In this document: positions 1 to 23,707 of the stretch, one piece after another
Layout: every line of letters starts with the position of its first letter
How positions within the stretch are numbered: position 1 is the stretch's first letter
From: a virus
IMG/VR virus record: IMGVR_UViG_3300007609_000087
Span: 1-24,728 of that record
Direction: 5' to 3' (one strand)
DNA length: 24,728 bases
Notes under the pieces: generated by a model
The model's input: the letters and a program-made list of their open reading frames with translations, nothing else
What the model was told of the DNA's origin: nothing
Database searches by the model: none
Position numbers and translations under genes: made by a program

Positions 1-54
1 AGCGGAGAACTGGGCATGAGTATTTTCAATACGATGGGAGCTTGCGACCAATGA
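1..54 (+). CDS. 3' end of an unidentified upstream gene (partial)
   Basis: From the first base, frame 1 stays open for 17 codons and stops with TGA at 52-54. The visible tail ends in ...MSIFNTMGACDQ. The stop overlaps the ATG of the next gene as ATGA (51-54), the same junction type used repeatedly elsewhere in this block, which is the main reason to treat it as real. By position it may be another tail or fibre gene, but 17 residues are too few to name a family. The left edge of the window cuts the gene. Confidence 0.45.
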   Translation, partial: SGELGMSIFNTMGACDQ

Positions 55-1958
55 GTAATACTAAAACAGTAATGGGCCAAGCGTCTAACCAGTATGTTGT
101 ACCTACTGATATTACAGATGTGTTCAGCACTTATTTGTATGAGGGCAATGGCTCTACACAAACGATCACCAACGGTATTGACCTTGATGGCGAAGGTGGT
201 TTGGTTTGGAGTAAGTCACGGTCTGGAGCTTACAGCCACGGTCTTTATGATACAGAGCGAGGCGTAACAAAAGAAATAAAGACCGATGCTACCACAGCCG
301 AAAGCACTGACAACGGTGTGACTGCTTTTAACTCTGATGGGTACGACGTTGGGGCAAGATTTACCACAAACAACAATGGCGATACCTACGCCTCTTGGAC
401 ATTCCGCAAAGCCCCTAAGTTCTTCGATGTGGTGACTTACACTGGGGATGGTGTTGCTGGTCGTGAGATTGCTCATAACCTTGGGACAACTGTTGGGACA
501 ATTATTGTCAAAAGAGTATCAAACACTTCAGATTGGACAACTTGGCACAGAAGTCTTGCCAACAATGAAATCATCGCACTTAACTTAGCTTCTGAAGCCT
601 ACATCGACAGTGCCTTTTTTGCCACTCCTCCCAGCACTACAGTGTTTACTGTTGGCAATACACCTTCAGCCAACGCCTCAGGCGAAACCTATGTCGCCTA
701 CCTATTCGCCCACAACGATGGTGACGGTGAGTTCGGCCCTGATGGTGACCAAGACATTATCAAGTGTGGTAGTTATACTGGTAATGGTTCTAGTGATGGC
801 CCTGAGATTGACTTGGGGTTTGAACCTCAGTGGTTGCTGATTAAGAACGCCAGCACTTCTGTAGGAAACTGGAATATTGCAGACGTTATGCGTGGGATGC
901 CTGTGGGTTCAAATACGCAACTTTTGGCAGCAAACACCTCAGGTGCTGAAGGCGGTATCCCAGCCTTTGTGCCGCAACCCACGGGCTTTAAGGTTGTTGA
1001 TAGTAATGAATTTTCAAACGGCTCTGGCAACACCTACATCTACATCGCCATCCGCCGTGGCCCTCTTGCTCCACCTGAGAGTGCGACTGAGGTGTTTGAT
1101 ATAACAACCCACAATGCTACGGTAGCACCTGCATTTAAGTCAGACTTCCCAGTAGACTTTGCTTTGATAAACAATGTAACAGCAGCTACTGCATTTGCAG
1201 CTGCAAGTAGGCTGACCCAAGGTAAATCTTTAACTACAGCATCTACGGCTTCCGAAACAAGTGATGCTAGTTATTTGTTTGACTATCAAGATGGGTGGAG
1301 AAATACAACTGGTACATTTTCAAATCTTTACTCTTGGATGTGGAAACGTGCGCCTAACTTCTTCGACGTTGTGGCCTACACGGGTAACAATAGCACAAGT
1401 CGATCTATAAGCCATAACCTTGGTGTTGCACCTGAGATGATATGGGTGAAGCGTAGAGACGGGACGTACAACTGGCTTGCTTGGCACAGTGTGTTCCTTG
1501 GTACAGGGTTAAACTTGTATTTAGATACAAATAACTCCCAAGATAATGGCGGCAGGTTTAGTGCCTCAGGACATACTAGTGAGGTGTTTAATCTTGGTGC
1601 AACTATTGGCGGGGTTAATACTTCTGGCGAAGACTACATAGCCTACCTCTTCGCAAGCTTAGATGGTGTGTCGAAGGTGTTCTCAGTAACAAAGAGTTCT
1701 GGTAGCGATGCTTCTGTGAACTGCGGTTTCTCAAGTGGTCCACGTTTCGTTATGCTCAAGCGTACTGACAGCACAGGTGATTGGTATGTGTGGGATACTG
1801 AACGTGGTATCGTTGCAGGTAATGATCCTTACTTGCTCCTGAACAGCACAGCCGCAGAAGTCACCTCTACTGACTACATTGATCCAACATCAAACGGCTT
1901 CACTATTGTGAACGGTGGTCTAGCTGATGGTGATTATATTGGATATGCTGTGGCATGA
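51..1958 (+). CDS. Repeat-built tail fibre/adhesin-like structural protein
   Basis: This 635-residue protein is a candidate receptor-binding or tail fibre component. The start is placed at ATG 51, with GGGAG at 36-40 as Shine-Dalgarno. A TTG at 42 is in frame but lies almost on the SD. The protein is built from about six related modules of roughly 90-110 residues, beginning near residues 26, 123, 234, 346, 436 and 541. Each has a beta-rich signature: an aromatic-Asp start such as FFDVVTYTGDG, an HNLG- or LGF-type turn, then a hydrophobic strand ending in KR and a Trp-rich piece (for example WTTWHRS, WLAWHSV). Linker strands of the type SGETYVAYLFA recur between modules. Such repeats are known from tail fibre-like proteins of marine phages (I recall the DUF7483 type, unverified). 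Its stop overlaps the next start as ATGA. There is no catalytic signature and no transmembrane segment. Confidence 0.7.
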   Translation: MSNTKTVMGQASNQYVVPTDITDVFSTYLYEGNGSTQTITNGIDLDGEGGLVWSKSRSGAYSHGLYDTERGVTKEIKTDATTAESTDNGVTAFNSDGYDVGARFTTNNNGDTYASWTFRKAPKFFDVVTYTGDGVAGREIAHNLGTTVGTIIVKRVSNTSDWTTWHRSLANNEIIALNLASEAYIDSAFFATPPSTTVFTVGNTPSANASGETYVAYLFAHNDGDGEFGPDGDQDIIKCGSYTGNGSSDGPEIDLGFEPQWLLIKNASTSVGNWNIADVMRGMPVGSNTQLLAANTSGAEGGIPAFVPQPTGFKVVDSNEFSNGSGNTYIYIAIRRGPLAPPESATEVFDITTHNATVAPAFKSDFPVDFALINNVTAATAFAAASRLTQGKSLTTASTASETSDASYLFDYQDGWRNTTGTFSNLYSWMWKRAPNFFDVVAYTGNNSTSRSISHNLGVAPEMIWVKRRDGTYNWLAWHSVFLGTGLNLYLDTNNSQDNGGRFSASGHTSEVFNLGATIGGVNTSGEDYIAYLFASLDGVSKVFSVTKSSGSDASVNCGFSSGPRFVMLKRTDSTGDWYVWDTERGIVAGNDPYLLLNSTAAEVTSTDYIDPTSNGFTIVNGGLADGDYIGYAVA

Positions 1959-2761
1959 TTGAGTACATCTACACAATAGAGAACACCGAAAACGGTAGAC
2001 TTTATGTGGGACGTACAAACAACCCTGCCTCAAGAAAACGTGGACACTTCTCTGAATTACGGAGGGGTGTTCACAGCAACCCTAAACTACAGAATGCCTT
2101 CAATAAGTACGGTGAAGATGCGTTTGTATTTAGTGTAGTTGAGTCTTGTTCTGGTGAGGACGTAAGGGACAAAGAGCAGGAGTGGTTCGATAAGTTCCAC
2201 AGAGATACTTCGTTCTTATACAACTGTCACTTCGAGACACACGGTGGGCCTATATGCACTGGTCCCCTACCAGAAGGAGTGAAGGTTAAAATATCAGAGG
2301 CTATCAAGGACAACACTAGAAAGTACATCTTTGATATTCTTGATGAACGATACGAAACTAAAGTGTCTTTAAAGTTTCTATCTGAAAAGTACTGCGTAGG
2401 CATTAACACTATCTGCGACTACATACCTGAATGGGAAGACAGAACAGGTCTAACTATGTTTGTTAGTAGTCAGATAGAAGACACATTAAAGCGTGTTGAA
2501 GTGTTTATTGAGGATTACGAAAAAGGTGTTTGCACACTCTCAGACTTTTATAAGTACGGGACAACGGTTCAGTCTATCAATAAGTATTGTGTCTTATTCA
2601 ACAAAGAGCCTGAAGACTTTAAAACAACAAAGCAAGATGCTAAACAAAGAGCATTAATTGCTATACAATACATGAAAGATACGGGGTGTAGTGCTGCGAA
2701 AGCAATTAGAGAATGCAAGTCAAGCACCACAACATTCTATAAATATCTCAATCAAGCCTAA
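1955..2761 (+). CDS. GIY-YIG homing-type endonuclease
   Basis: This 268-residue protein is probably a free-standing homing endonuclease. The N-terminal nuclease fold shows YIY at 4-6 and YVG at 17-19. Catalytic-type residues are R27, H31, E74 (in DKEQEWF) and N90 (in LYNCH), and R27 and N90 fall at the same numbers as in I-TevI. Residues from about 90 onward look like a DNA-binding tail with three helix-turn-helix-like stretches: near 130-150 (LKFLSEKYCVGINTICDYI), near 196-215 (LSDFYKYGTTVQSINKYC), and at the end (AAKAIRECKSSTTTFYKYL). The start codon overlaps the tail-protein stop as ATGA, so it is probably translated by coupling; no strong SD is seen. By eye it is richer in A/T and lysine codons than its neighbours, consistent with recent arrival. 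It lies between the fibre gene and the assembly-chaperone gene. Enzymes of this kind cut a site in a related phage genome and are copied across by repair. Confidence 0.85.
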   Translation: MIEYIYTIENTENGRLYVGRTNNPASRKRGHFSELRRGVHSNPKLQNAFNKYGEDAFVFSVVESCSGEDVRDKEQEWFDKFHRDTSFLYNCHFETHGGPICTGPLPEGVKVKISEAIKDNTRKYIFDILDERYETKVSLKFLSEKYCVGINTICDYIPEWEDRTGLTMFVSSQIEDTLKRVEVFIEDYEKGVCTLSDFYKYGTTVQSINKYCVLFNKEPEDFKTTKQDAKQRALIAIQYMKDTGCSAAKAIRECKSSTTTFYKYLNQA

Positions 2762-2772
2762 AGGAGAATACT

Positions 2773-3285
2773 ATGGGCGAATATCGTGATAGAACTACTG
2801 GAGTTGTCAAAACCCAAGGGCAATGGCGCAGCCACTACAAGAACGTCTCACTGCCTCGTGCATGGAAGCAAGCAACACTGGATGGCCTCAACCTAGAGGC
2901 TGTCCTAGAGGCTCCCAAGCCTACTGTTGGCCAGTATGAGGTAGCAGCACGCAACGGAGTAACTCAGGATGCTAAAGGCAACTGGGTCACTGCATGGGAA
3001 GTGCGTGATATGTTCACTAGCTACACTGACGAGGAAGGTGTCTTCCACAGTAAGCTAGACCAAGAGCAGGCCTACCAAGCAGGTCTTGATGCTAAGGTGG
3101 CTGAGTCTAATCGTGCTAAACGAGATGGTCTCCTAGTTGATACAGACTGGACTCAGATGAATGACAGTCCTCTCACTAACGAAGCTAAGACTGCCTGGGC
3201 TACCTACCGTCAAGAGCTACGTCAGATCACAGACCTAGACGCATGGCCTAACCTAGCAGATGATGACTGGCCCGTAGAACCCTAA
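2773..3285 (+). CDS. Tail fibre assembly chaperone-like protein
   Basis: This is a 170-residue soluble protein with SD AAGGAG at 2761-2766, six bases before ATG. Its last 50 or so residues read DWTQMNDSPLTNEAKTAW, then a YRQELRQ helix, and end in WP..ADDDWPVEP. That is the pattern of the Phage_tail_APC/tail-fibre assembly family, where DW(T)Q..D.PL is followed by AW..YRQ.LR and a Trp-Pro-rich end. Family members help fold or attach tail fibres and are usually encoded just downstream of the fibre gene. Here the GIY-YIG gene separates the two. The N-terminal 100 residues are charged and lack a recognisable domain. It could be a minor fibre-associated structural protein instead; the family call rests on the C-terminal motif only. 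Confidence 0.6.
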   Translation: MGEYRDRTTGVVKTQGQWRSHYKNVSLPRAWKQATLDGLNLEAVLEAPKPTVGQYEVAARNGVTQDAKGNWVTAWEVRDMFTSYTDEEGVFHSKLDQEQAYQAGLDAKVAESNRAKRDGLLVDTDWTQMNDSPLTNEAKTAWATYRQELRQITDLDAWPNLADDDWPVEP

Positions 3286-3302
3286 CTTGCTAAGGAACCA
3301 AC

Positions 3303-4850
3303 ATGGCAACCAAAGATGCATTAGACCAGATACGACAAGCAGCTGAGAATGACTTAGAGTTCTTCATTCAGTTGGTTGCTCCACAACAGGTCTTAGGGGA
3401 TTGCCATAAGGAAGTAATCGAATGGTGGACAAGGGAAGATGCTAAAGACTTTCAGCTTCTCTTGTTCCCACGAGATCACGGTAAGTCACGGCTTGTAGCA
3501 TATCGTGTTGCATGGGAACTAACTAAGAACCCTACACTACGTATCCTCTATATCTCTGCTACTGCTAACCTTGCTGAGAAGCAACTTAGTTTCATTAAAG
3601 GTATCTTTACCTCAGAGATCTTTAGACGTTACTGGCCTCATCACATACACCCTGAAGAGGGTAAGCGTACACGGTGGACTAACTCAGAGATTAGCTTAGA
3701 CCACCCTCTCCGTAAGAAAGAGAATGTACGTGACCCTAGCGTATTCACTGGTGGCTTGACTACCTCGCTTACTGGTCTGCACTGTGACATTGCTGTACTT
3801 GATGACGTTGTTGTAGCTGAGAATGCTTTGACATCTGAGGGTAGAAGCAAGGTTGCTAGTCAGTACTCACTGCTCTCATCCATCGAAGGTGCTGATGCAC
3901 AGGAGTGGGTAGTAGGTACTAGATACCACAGCAAGGACTTGTACAACGATCTGATGGAGATGAAAGAAGTTCTCTACGATAGCAAGGGTGAGCAGGTCGG
4001 TGAAGACAACATCTACGAGATCATGGAGAAGCCAGTTGAGAACCTAGGTGATGGTACTGGTGAGTTCCTCTGGCCTCGACAGCAACGTAAAGATGGTAAG
4101 TGGTTCGGGTTCGACATCCAGACCTTAGCTAAGAAACGTGGTAAGTACCTAGACAAGGGGCAGTTCAAGGCTCAGTACTACAACGACCCTAGTGACCCAG
4201 ACAACGTACCTGTAGGTAGAGATAAGATCCAGTACTTCGACAGGAAGCACCTTAAGCTAGACAACGGGTTCTGGTTCTACAAGGATAAGAAGCTAAACCT
4301 CTTCTCTGCTATCGACTTCGCTTTCAGTCTTAGATCTAAAGCTGACTATACAGCACTGGTCCTTGTAGGAGTAGACGCTGACAACAACGTGTACGTCCTA
4401 GACATCGACAGGTTCAAGACTGACCGTATCTCTGAGTACTTCGATCACATCTTCGACATGCACACTAAGTGGTCCTTCAGGAAGCTACGTGCAGAGGTTA
4501 CTGTAGCTCAGATGGCTATCGTTAAGCAGCTAAAAGACTTAATCAAAGAACATGGCCTAGCCCTCAGCATCGAGGAGTTCAGACCTAACAAGAACCAAGG
4601 TAACAAGCAGGAGCGTATCGCCTCTGTCCTAGAGCCTAGGTACGACAACTTACAGATGTGGCACTACAGGGGTGGTAACACTCAGTACCTAGAGGACGAA
4701 CTCTCTAGTCGTAACCCGCCACACGATGACGTAATTGACGCTTTAGCATCTGCCGTAGATATGGCTGTGCGTCCAACACGTAGCCTTAACAGGAAACGGG
4801 AAAGCAATATTGTCTGGGCGAATAGTCGTTTCAGAGCAGGGAGTAGATAA
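3303..4850 (+). CDS. terL: Terminase large subunit (packaging ATPase/nuclease)
   Basis: This 515-residue protein is the DNA-packaging motor that docks on the portal. A Walker A-like loop FPRDHGKSR lies at 55-63; it is degenerate compared with GxxxxGK[ST] but typical of several podovirus terminases. Walker B CDIAVLDDVV is at 161-170, with acidic residues 167-168. The coupling motif VVGTRYH is at about 203-209. The C-terminal RNase H-like nuclease starts with SAIDFAF near residue 335, has an acidic residue in LRAEVT near 400, and finishes with PPHDDVIDA near 472. Length fits the T7-type group. SD AAGGA at 3292-3296. The stop TAA overlaps the portal start (TAATG), coupling motor and portal translation. 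No small terminase subunit is recognisable next to it. Confidence 0.93.
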   Translation: MATKDALDQIRQAAENDLEFFIQLVAPQQVLGDCHKEVIEWWTREDAKDFQLLLFPRDHGKSRLVAYRVAWELTKNPTLRILYISATANLAEKQLSFIKGIFTSEIFRRYWPHHIHPEEGKRTRWTNSEISLDHPLRKKENVRDPSVFTGGLTTSLTGLHCDIAVLDDVVVAENALTSEGRSKVASQYSLLSSIEGADAQEWVVGTRYHSKDLYNDLMEMKEVLYDSKGEQVGEDNIYEIMEKPVENLGDGTGEFLWPRQQRKDGKWFGFDIQTLAKKRGKYLDKGQFKAQYYNDPSDPDNVPVGRDKIQYFDRKHLKLDNGFWFYKDKKLNLFSAIDFAFSLRSKADYTALVLVGVDADNNVYVLDIDRFKTDRISEYFDHIFDMHTKWSFRKLRAEVTVAQMAIVKQLKDLIKEHGLALSIEEFRPNKNQGNKQERIASVLEPRYDNLQMWHYRGGNTQYLEDELSSRNPPHDDVIDALASAVDMAVRPTRSLNRKRESNIVWANSRFRAGSR

Positions 4851-12314: not shown

Positions 12315-12773
12315 ATGTCTTACACAATCCGTGACGCTAACCACAGCGACATCTTAGATATTACTATTGCTGCAAAGATGTTCTCGAAGGAAACTAACCA
12401 CCCTGCCTTGAACACTATCAACCCTAATAAAGTAGCTAACAGCCTTCAGCAACTGATTGACAGTGAACTAGGGTTAGTTAAGGTTGCTTGCTTCAACAAT
12501 GAAATAGTAGGGGCTATCGCTGGAGTAGTTACAGAACTACCTATCAACGATCTAGTTATATCTCAAGAGTTGATGTTGTGGTTAGACCCCTCTCACAGGA
12601 ACGGTAAGACAGCCCCTAAGTTAATTGATGCTTATGTAGCTTGGTCAACTAAGATGGGTTGTGACTTCGCAAGGTTATCTGCTCTTGATGCAGTCCTAGA
12701 GGGTCGTGCTGGTGTCCTATTTAAACGCAAAGGTTTCGTAGAGATTGAGACCGCATACATAAAGGAATTGTAA
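12315..12773 (+). CDS. GNAT-family N-acetyltransferase
   Basis: This 152-residue protein has the GNAT fold. The N-terminal strand-helix is YTIRDANHSDILDITIAAKM. A central strand NEIVGAIAGVV is followed by the acetyl-CoA-binding region LWLDPSHRNGKTAPKLIDAY, where R-N-G-K-T-A (about 95-100) fits the (R/Q)xxGx(G/A) loop. The C-terminal GVLFKRKGFVEIETAYIKEL is the usual GNAT ending. SD AGGAG at 12305-12309. It sits between the tail nozzle and the internal virion proteins, where T7 has gene 13. Similar acetyltransferase-like proteins occur there in other podoviruses. It could modify a virion protein, a host protein or an antibacterial compound; the substrate cannot be read from sequence. Confidence 0.85.
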   Translation: MSYTIRDANHSDILDITIAAKMFSKETNHPALNTINPNKVANSLQQLIDSELGLVKVACFNNEIVGAIAGVVTELPINDLVISQELMLWLDPSHRNGKTAPKLIDAYVAWSTKMGCDFARLSALDAVLEGRAGVLFKRKGFVEIETAYIKEL

Positions 12774-22493: not shown

Positions 22494-22678
22494 CAGCGTT
22501 TCTCCTTTAGATATTTAATACGAATAGTCTGGTACAAGGTAAGCAAGGGCCATGCTATACAGAAGAGATACACGTTAATCTCTTCGTAAGTAATGTTTAG
22601 TTTAGCAGCTACCCAGTACAGGAGTATCACACACCAGTCAAAGGTTATGTCTATCCACAGTATCCCGCTCTCCGCCAT
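22493..22678 (-). CDS. Small two-TM membrane protein
   Basis: This is a 61-residue protein. ATG at 22678 is chosen because it overlaps the phoH stop (TGATG) and has AAGGAG at 22687-22692, eight bases upstream; a longer frame to 22720 would lie inside phoH. There are two hydrophobic stretches, about 5-22 (GILWIDITFDWCVILLYW) and about 32-47 (VYLFCIAWPLLTLYQT). A short acidic loop lies between them, and the end is basic (RIKYLKEKR), giving a hairpin with the basic end probably cytoplasmic. I recognise no family. It sits between PhoH and the DUF3310 protein rather than in the lysis cassette, so a holin or antiholin role is only one option. Confidence 0.7.
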   Translation of the reverse strand: MAESGILWIDITFDWCVILLYWVAAKLNITYEEINVYLFCIAWPLLTLYQTIRIKYLKEKR

Positions 22679-23385
22679 CACAGCCTCTCCTTCATAAATA
22701 CCTTGACCCACTGTGCACATATGTCACTTCGTACAATGTCTTCTACACCGAACTCAATGACTGGTACAGGGAGCATGTGTTTCTTTGCTAGGTGAATAAC
22801 CTTCGACAGACCATCTGCTTCTTTCAGGTCTGACTGTTGTACGTCACCATTAAGAACGATAGTAGTACCTTCACCTACCCTTGTCAAGAGCATCTTCAAC
22901 TCATGTGTTGTGATGTTCTGTGTCTCGTCTACGATAATGAAGGCATTGTCAAAGCTACGACCACGCATGAGAGCTAGAGGTGCCATCTCAATGTTACCGT
23001 TCTTGATCCCTGTCTCTACAGCACCCTTACCTAGGTGTTTAATGAGAACATCTAAGACAGGTAACGCCCAAGGGTAAGTCTTCTCCTCAAGGGAACCAGG
23101 CAGGTAGCCAATGTCCTTGCCTACAGACACGTGTGGGCGGGTGATAACAATCTTGTCGATCTCTTTAGTCGTGTAGAGGTCAGAGGCGTAGGTGGCAGTT
23201 ACGTAGGTCTTACCTGTACCAGCAGGCCCAAGGACGAACACTTGCTGAGATTCTTTCAGTGCATCAATAAACTCTTTCTGCCTATCGGTACGAGGTACAA
23301 GCCCAGAAGTCTTCTTAGCAGACGCATTCTTGTAGTTAGTCTTGCGTCTAGTCTTGGTTGGCTTCTTAGGGAAATCATCGTCCAC
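22678..23385 (-). CDS. phoH: PhoH-like P-loop ATPase
   Basis: This is a 235-residue protein. A basic N-terminal tail of about 30 residues (KKPTKTRRKTNYKNASAKK) precedes the PhoH core. Walker A is GPAGTGKT at 53-60 and Walker B is FIIVDETQN at 149-157. The family's VITRPHVSVGKDIGYLPGSL lies near 80-99, and VLNGDVQQSDL follows Walker B. phoH is a common auxiliary gene of marine phages. Its cellular role is debated (RNA metabolism or phosphate stress), so no pathway is asserted. The start is GTG at 23385 with AAGGAG at 23396-23401. It overlaps the glutaredoxin gene by 11 bases and the next gene by one. Confidence 0.93.
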   Translation of the reverse strand: MDDDFPKKPTKTRRKTNYKNASAKKTSGLVPRTDRQKEFIDALKESQQVFVLGPAGTGKTYVTATYASDLYTTKEIDKIVITRPHVSVGKDIGYLPGSLEEKTYPWALPVLDVLIKHLGKGAVETGIKNGNIEMAPLALMRGRSFDNAFIIVDETQNITTHELKMLLTRVGEGTTIVLNGDVQQSDLKEADGLSKVIHLAKKHMLPVPVIEFGVEDIVRSDICAQWVKVFMKERL

Positions 23386-23608
23386 GAGTTAGGTTCTCCT
23401 TGAGTTCTGTGTACCCACCAATCAGGTCACCCTCTGGCGAGAACACTTGTGGTACGGTGGTGAGACTAGCCTTCTTCATAAGACTTAGCAACCACACATT
23501 CTTGTAGTCCTGTACGTTGTAGGTAACGTACCTCTCCTCTGCTCCGTCCAGCAATGCCTTAGCACTGTCACAGAAGTTGCATTGATTACGTGTAAGTATA
23601 ACGTACAT
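23375..23608 (-). CDS. Glutaredoxin
   Basis: This is a 77-residue protein. The CNFC active site (C10, C13) lies after the first strand MYVILTRNQ. The cis-Pro loop TTVPQVF has P53, and GGYTEL at 64-69 is the glutathione-site signature. Start ATG 23608 is preferred (GGAG six bases upstream). The longer frame to 23638 would run into the tRNA gene. It would reduce disulfides, most plausibly those of the ribonucleotide reductase encoded upstream in the same operon. A thioredoxin-like partner cannot be excluded. Confidence 0.9.
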   Translation of the reverse strand: MYVILTRNQCNFCDSAKALLDGAEERYVTYNVQDYKNVWLLSLMKKASLTTVPQVFSPEGDLIGGYTELKENLTRGR

Positions 23609-23630
23609 CTTTCGCTCCAAGGTGTTAGGT

Positions 23631-23707
23631 TGGCCCACCCTGCAGGACTCGAACCTGCAACCCTCTGCTTAGAAGGCAGATGCTCTATCCAGTTGAGCTA
23701 AGGGTGG
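23631..23707 (-). tRNA. tRNA-Arg (anticodon UCU), CCA encoded
   Basis: The minus strand folds into a full cloverleaf. The acceptor stem CCACCCT/AGGGTGG has seven perfect pairs. The D stem is GCTC/GAGC with a GG-containing loop. The anticodon stem TCTGC/GCAGA has loop CTTCTAA, anticodon TCT at 23671-23673. The T arm is GCAGG-TTCGAGT-CCTGC. Discriminator G at 23634 is followed by an encoded CCA (23631-23633). It reads AGA codons and may also help with AGG. It lies between the reductase and glutaredoxin genes on the same strand, so it is probably cut out of the operon transcript. Confidence 0.95.

Follow-up and report, generated by a model that had tools for sequence, protein, structure and literature searches.

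A putative hot spot for free-standing homing endonucleases of several types at the tail-fibre/chaperone junction of roseophage-like viruses

A predicted GIY-YIG nuclease gene that opens within the stop codon of a tail-fibre gene and ends just ahead of a tail assembly chaperone gene raises the question of whether it is a mobile element lodged at this junction and, if so, whether the neighbouring fibre gene is spread along with it. The window analysed here is the whole of a 24.7-kb stretch of viral DNA (24,728 nt; virus record IMGVR_UViG_3300007609_000087, positions 1 to 24,728), and the features of the locus are collected in Table 1. Loci in other viral contigs are referred to by L numbers.

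Table 1. Features of the fibre/nuclease/chaperone locus in the window
Feature	Positions	Strand	Basis or remark
DUF7483 tail-fibre-like gene	3..1958	+	5' end cut by window; stop TGA (1956-1958) comes from the nuclease ATGA
Last ~320 nt of fibre, common to GIY-YIG carriers with differing upstream fibre	1635..1954	+	Identity profiles, empty-pair control
ATGA overlap	1955..1958	+	Completes last Ala codon of fibre, fibre stop and nuclease start
GIY-YIG homing-endonuclease-like gene, 268 aa	1955..2761	+	Pfam, PHROG, structure matches, invariant residues
GIY-YIG catalytic domain, residues 2-80	1958..2194	+	Invariant Y6, Y17, G19, R27, H31, E74; N90 just beyond
Three-helix HTH-like unit 1, residues 123-155	2321..2419	+	Predicted structure
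Three-helix HTH-like unit 2, residues 172-215	2468..2599	+	Predicted structure, hhalign to unit 1
Three-helix HTH-like unit 3, residues 226-265	2630..2749	+	Predicted structure
3' tail TCAAGCCTAAAGGAGAATACT-ATG: nuclease end, ribosome-binding site and chaperone start	2752..2775	+	Same tail after two other nuclease types
Tail assembly chaperone (Phage_tail_APC)	2773..3285	+	Pfam, PHROG

The layout given in the original prediction, namely a nuclease that starts inside the fibre stop codon, has no clear Shine-Dalgarno sequence and lies between a fibre gene and a chaperone-like gene, was borne out in each respect. The 3' end of the fibre gene reads GCTGTGGC-ATGA, of which the ATG opens the nuclease frame such that the two ORFs overlap as ATGA, and no Shine-Dalgarno-like stretch precedes that ATG (TTGGATATGCTGTGGC-ATGA). 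The upstream neighbour matches DUF7483 (Pfam, E 1.7e-94) and the downstream neighbour Phage_tail_APC (Pfam, E 7.8e-15), the chaperone ATG standing 11 nt past the nuclease stop with a ribosome-binding site, AAGGAG, at 2761-2766. The operon is unbroken by the insert: the ATGA finishes the fibre gene, and the last bases of the insert supply the ribosome-binding site of the chaperone. The fibre is a putative receptor-binding protein, an assignment that rests on family names, its place beside the chaperone and its variability. Promoter-like matches near the nuclease gene were no more frequent than chance (two found, 2.8 expected), and neither of two terminator-like matches there was on the + strand. 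Compared with its neighbours, the nuclease gene has the lowest GC content (39.8%, against 46.4% for the fibre, 47.1% for terL and 51.8% for the chaperone), and its codon-usage score is atypical, as is that of the fibre, both being lower than in any of 500 windows of 268 codons sampled from the pooled structural genes. Elsewhere in the window, a GNAT-like acetyltransferase (Pfam below cut-off) lies within the structural gene module (12315-12773), and a PhoH-like ATPase lies beside a glutaredoxin gene on the minus strand (22678-23638), opposite to the structural genes.

The window protein belongs to the GIY-YIG superfamily, as seen from a PF01541 match above the curated cut-off (E 2.2e-10; 41.1 bits vs 22.6) together with the catalytic residues, with Y6, I8, Y17, G19, R27, H31, L35, Q46, N50, K51, G53, E54, E74 and N90 invariant in 29/29 aligned sequences. 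It also matches homing-endonuclease PHROGs (314, E 5e-24; 7168, E 1e-23), and the catalytic domain of I-TevI was matched both by sequence (1MK0, 7.6e-10; 1LN0, 1.2e-9) and by fold (Foldseek to 1MK0/1LN0, E 9e-6 to 7e-5). The catalytic residues of I-TevI we take to be R27 and E75, and 1MK0 is labelled an E75A mutant in the structure match listing. The match to the SegE family (PF19835) stayed below the gathering cut-off (23.1 bits vs 25), and the C-terminal half gave no Pfam match to the I-TevI DNA-binding domain. In the AlphaFold2 model (mean pLDDT 86.3, pTM 0.40) the GIY-YIG domain is followed by a poorly modelled linker near residues 96-98 and then by three three-helix units, the relative placement of the domains not being trustworthy because of the low pTM. 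The three helix-turn-helix-like units originally proposed for this region are thus present in the predicted structure, with sequence resemblance between units 1 and 2 only (hhalign E 2e-4); unit 3 did not align with the others by hhalign. The gene is free-standing in that it has its own ORF between a fibre ORF that runs through to a stop and an intact chaperone ORF; no coding gene is interrupted, and 1000-3500 gave no Rfam match at E<=1, hence no sign of a surrounding group I intron.

If the gene were conserved at this place in all relatives, with no empty alleles, the proposal of a mobile insertion would have little to stand on; this was clearly not the case, since the junction is empty in most relatives and holds nucleases of other types in some. 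The closest named relative found, Roseobacter phage CRP-4 (Zobellviridae, Veravirus), has 86.6% nucleotide identity to the window over 6 kb, the similarity beginning precisely where the chaperone gene does (window 2773, CRP-4 locus 5862). To the left of the chaperone start the two differ, their DUF7483 fibre alleles sharing 44.7% amino acid identity (tblastn), and CRP-4, which has a 36-nt leader and lacks the nuclease, represents an empty-site allele. The junction was empty in 5/5 named roseophages fetched (CRP-4, CRP-13, CRP-9, CRP-603 and CRP-1). A search of IMG/VR with the window chaperone returned 80 loci, three of which (L017, L069 and L081) had too little upstream DNA; 74 of the 77 informative loci were empty, the fibre leading straight to the chaperone, and three were occupied (L009, L010 with an insert identical to that of L009, and L040). 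Where the upstream region in this search was shortest, the fibre end was identified by eye in the leader sequence, and the loci, called marine by their kinship to roseophages, may include near-copies of one virus. A second chaperone scan, with an alignment seeded from occupied loci of a more distant group, yielded 64 empty and 13 occupied among the 77 informative loci of its best 80 (three were too short); 11 of the 13 were recognised by HMM and two (L230, L294) from upstream DNA that reads as nuclease, and two of the 13 are seed contigs. Empty alleles of the site held by the window nuclease therefore exist in its relatives. One locus counted as empty has a 135-nt gene-free gap between fibre and chaperone (L045:5866-6000) with near-repeats of TCTTAATTTCCACTGG.

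Two further observations concern empty sites. Just past the fibre stop of L011 (5290-5420) there is a second copy of the fibre-end-like AATCGCATAA, possibly the scar of a lost insert, and the leaders of L004, L012, L013, L016, L018 and L067 have an extra stretch beginning CTACGCAAC, most of them also containing CGTCCTAACGGACTAC.

Occupied junctions carry nucleases of several types. A single-protein scan of viral contigs with the window nuclease found no relative; a scan with a two-sequence alignment (A1) gave 80 loci, five with less than 300 nt upstream, of which seven directly follow a DUF7483-type fibre. These seven are exactly the loci with at least 54% identity over at least 215 residues, and around the other 73 matches no fibre of this kind occurs within 400 nt. 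Junction carriers of the window's GIY-YIG type thus form a small set, the window and seven contigs, in which one virus may be represented more than once by near-copies: L091 (the contig that is also L095) and L094, with 75-76% amino acid identity to the window, and L096-L100, with a shorter 225-aa form that is 52-53% identical in the three aligned. The second type (A2), in L089 and L093, is T5orf172-like and is taken to be a nuclease because of a sub-threshold Pfam match (T5orf172, E 0.045), a weak match to a PHROG HNH endonuclease family (E 0.0055) and its position, its predicted structure being too poor for use (pLDDT 41.6). A sub-threshold Pfam match of A2 to Glyco_hydro_134 (E 0.0061), which scores better than T5orf172, was taken as chance. 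The third type is an HNH nuclease (phrog_374, E 2.6e-64) found in L009, L010 and as the second gene of L090, and the fourth is HNH/NUMOD3-like (NUMOD3 Pfam E 2e-8; phrog_314 E 1e-7), found in L040, as the first gene of L090 and in others, with the result that L090 (4717-5885) has two unrelated nuclease genes in tandem at the junction. In a scan for the fourth type, the fibre ORF ended within about 20 nt of the nuclease match in 42 of 43 loci, as judged with a fibre HMM made from 19 fibres of this comparison, some of them from occupied loci; upstream of the remaining locus, L202, only 93 nt are available, and these read as a fibre end. The same type was not found in a scan of bacterial and archaeal genomes. 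The best 80 loci of the second chaperone scan added GIY-YIG forms (L232, L253/L265) and NUMOD3-like forms (L279, L287), and L221, with no Pfam match at E 0.05, was grouped by resemblance only. In L214 (4999-5120) the start of an HNH/NUMOD3-like gene is joined out of frame to its end, as read from the sequence, and L215 has the same ORF ends at the same place; this internally deleted remnant between fibre and chaperone is a decaying allele.

The in-register overlap with the fibre stop and the continuity of the operon would also suit an ordinary member of the operon that serves a structural or regulatory function at this place, an explanation that is extremely improbable for a gene that most relatives lack and whose place unrelated nucleases can take, and that the empty alleles contradict. 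From its insertion position, the empty alleles, the several types at one junction, the decayed remnant of another type, its predicted fold, and its transfer relative to the flanks and maintenance by purifying selection (both below), the window gene is very probably a free-standing, intronless GIY-YIG homing endonuclease that has invaded a junction used by several unrelated types. On sequence comparisons, we read the junction as a hot spot for intronless homing endonucleases of multiple families, situated at a putative receptor-binding locus, with the window gene as one resident.

The types differ in how they sit at the junction. The 3' tail of the window insert (TCAAGCCTAAAGGAGAATACTATG) is present in seven viral contigs, six of which have upstream DNA, and all six are occupied, with nucleases of three different types adjoining the tail. 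An empty site with this tail was accordingly not found among them, nor was an exact empty-site ancestor of the window's own fibre allele. That unrelated nucleases have in common a tail with the chaperone ribosome-binding site looks as if one insert had replaced another by a crossover within that tail. In L089 and L093 the fibre end and the leader ahead of the nuclease are both normal, which places entry of these inserts at the chaperone start. Inserts of the HNH/NUMOD3-like type lie inside the fibre gene, having entered it a few codons ahead of its stop, and exchange the fibre C-terminus: the fibre ends in Ser or Ser-Ala in 33/43 carriers vs 1/135 empty loci (71 marine and 64 of the second group), and in 26/40 (L214-L216 left out) it is the nuclease that has the terminal AIA usual for fibres, the carriers being related such that no p-value is to be read strictly from these counts. 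By bringing its own replacement for the last codons, this type would leave the fibre intact despite an insertion inside the gene. The possibility that the window fibre end, YIGYAVA, was brought by the GIY-YIG gene was rejected, as L010 has the same end with another nuclease.

Comparison of the flanks demonstrated that the nuclease gene moves horizontally relative to its surroundings. Pairs among L096-L100, and the pair L091/L094, share 95-100% identity in the nuclease and 94-100% in the last 300 nt of the fibre, against 64-72% in the preceding fibre stretch (-600 to -300) in 10 of 11 pairs, the exception being L096/L097, which share more. Across the 13 pairs profiled, identity broke at -306 to -328 in ten and at -607 in L096/L097, and in the two pairs that include the window the profile jumps at -320, where the automatic threshold failed and gave -200. 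As a control, 1,081 pairs of 47 empty junctions had a median identity of 58% in the last 300 nt, and five pairs reached at least 85% there with less than 75% in the preceding 300 nt; by the same measure, 7 of the 9 profiled GIY-YIG carrier pairs did so, these pairs not being independent, while the window/L094 pair reaches 84% and L096/L097 share more. The last ~320 nt of the fibre thus travel with the GIY-YIG nuclease, a pattern that is rare among empty sites. In L089/L093 and L185/L188 the nucleases are 96-97% identical and the flanks mostly 35-85%, identity dropping near the gene ends, which indicates that a nuclease can move with almost no flank. The original prediction of a mobile gene at the junction is supported by these abrupt changes of identity at the ends of the nuclease or close to them; its further proposal, that the gene spreads with fibre genes, finds support in GIY-YIG carriers only, and there only over the final ~320 nt of the fibre, and movement of whole fibre genes by the nuclease was dropped as an explanation.

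The ten breaks at about -306 to -328 fall at a fibre block, YVAYLFAxxxGVSKV, as would be expected if ordinary homologous recombination, acting between conserved blocks, exchanged the 3' module of the fibre and a once-inserted nuclease rode along, driving nothing; the five empty pairs are evidence that the module is also swapped where no nuclease is present. We consider this explanation quite improbable, since L089/L093 and L185/L188 have the nuclease in common but not the fibre end, and several unrelated types in one junction, set against many empty alleles, would be unexpected from one carried insertion.

A different alternative is that the nuclease has been domesticated as a weapon, kept because cutting the fibre locus of competitors benefits the carrier, with homing secondary. 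Estimates of dN/dS were 0.07 and 0.09 for the window nuclease against L091 and L094, with synonymous sites nearly saturated, 0.04 between L091 and L094, and 0.04-0.26 overall in the 12 pairs that yielded an estimate (13 tried), values that point to purifying selection on the gene and that such a benefit could account for; interference with co-infecting phages is also an idea put forward in part of PMC12654880. Occupancy is patchy (3/77 informative loci in the first search and 13/77 among the best 80 of the second) and remnants exist, which fits invasion and loss better than a stable benefit. Domestication is therefore unlikely, with the proviso that it overlaps with homing and that the two are not separable by sequence.

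If the gene is a homing endonuclease, it would cut the empty junction of a co-infecting relative, and repair of the break from the carrier would copy in the nuclease gene together with a stretch of the neighbouring fibre 3' end. Its translation would probably be coupled to that of the fibre and its expression late. The C-terminal three-helix units, as modelled, may read a long DNA site, which would explain confinement to one place. More speculatively, and with rather more doubt than belief, the 3' end of the DUF7483 fibre gene could be a shared arena in which unrelated homing nucleases compete for one target and repeated cutting and repair reshuffles the C-terminal ~100 residues among phages, the HNH type bringing its own last codons. 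Were this so, domain exchange in a receptor-binding protein would be continually driven by a class of selfish genes.

The locus provides a defined and naturally replicated system, with empty, singly occupied, doubly occupied and decayed alleles of one junction and several nuclease types, in which it can be asked whether homing nucleases drive the exchange of host-recognition genes or only hitchhike. This question is testable because a host is on record for CRP-4, a close named relative with an empty site. Literature searches found no paper on DUF7483 or on this junction, and a word search of the first RCA roseophage paper (PMC6918029) gave no mention of homing. Nucleases are mentioned in part of PMC8594841 as putative homing genes, present or absent near the lateral tail fibre genes of Markadamsvirinae, and are noted there as exceptional in the flanking regions rather than as marking a common point of insertion. 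Recombinants that gained both receptor-binding protein and endonuclease genes are described in part of PMC12654880.

The kind of element is known; as far as the literature searches reach, the hot spot and the HNH type's swap of the last fibre codons are new. Nucleases of the NUMOD3/PHROG HNH kinds (phrog_314, phrog_374) are among the types at this hot spot, the HNH/NUMOD3-like type differing from the window GIY-YIG gene in entering the fibre gene a few codons before its stop and swapping the fibre C-terminus. SegH/Hef reportedly replace mobC/mobE in T4-related phages, a comparable case of different homing nucleases in one genomic slot, whereas the slot described here lies at a tail-fibre locus and draws several types in many phages. 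In T4-like phages, intronless homing by SegF/SegG, with marker exclusion and co-conversion, is the accepted model in the parts of PMC2993671 and PMC12724721 that deal with it. Like the T4 Seg proteins and I-TevI, the window nuclease has an I-TevI-type GIY-YIG domain, and it is intronless, patchy in distribution and placed at a gene junction; unlike them, it has a C-terminal half modelled as three three-helix units and is located at the tail-fibre/chaperone junction of a roseophage-like virus.
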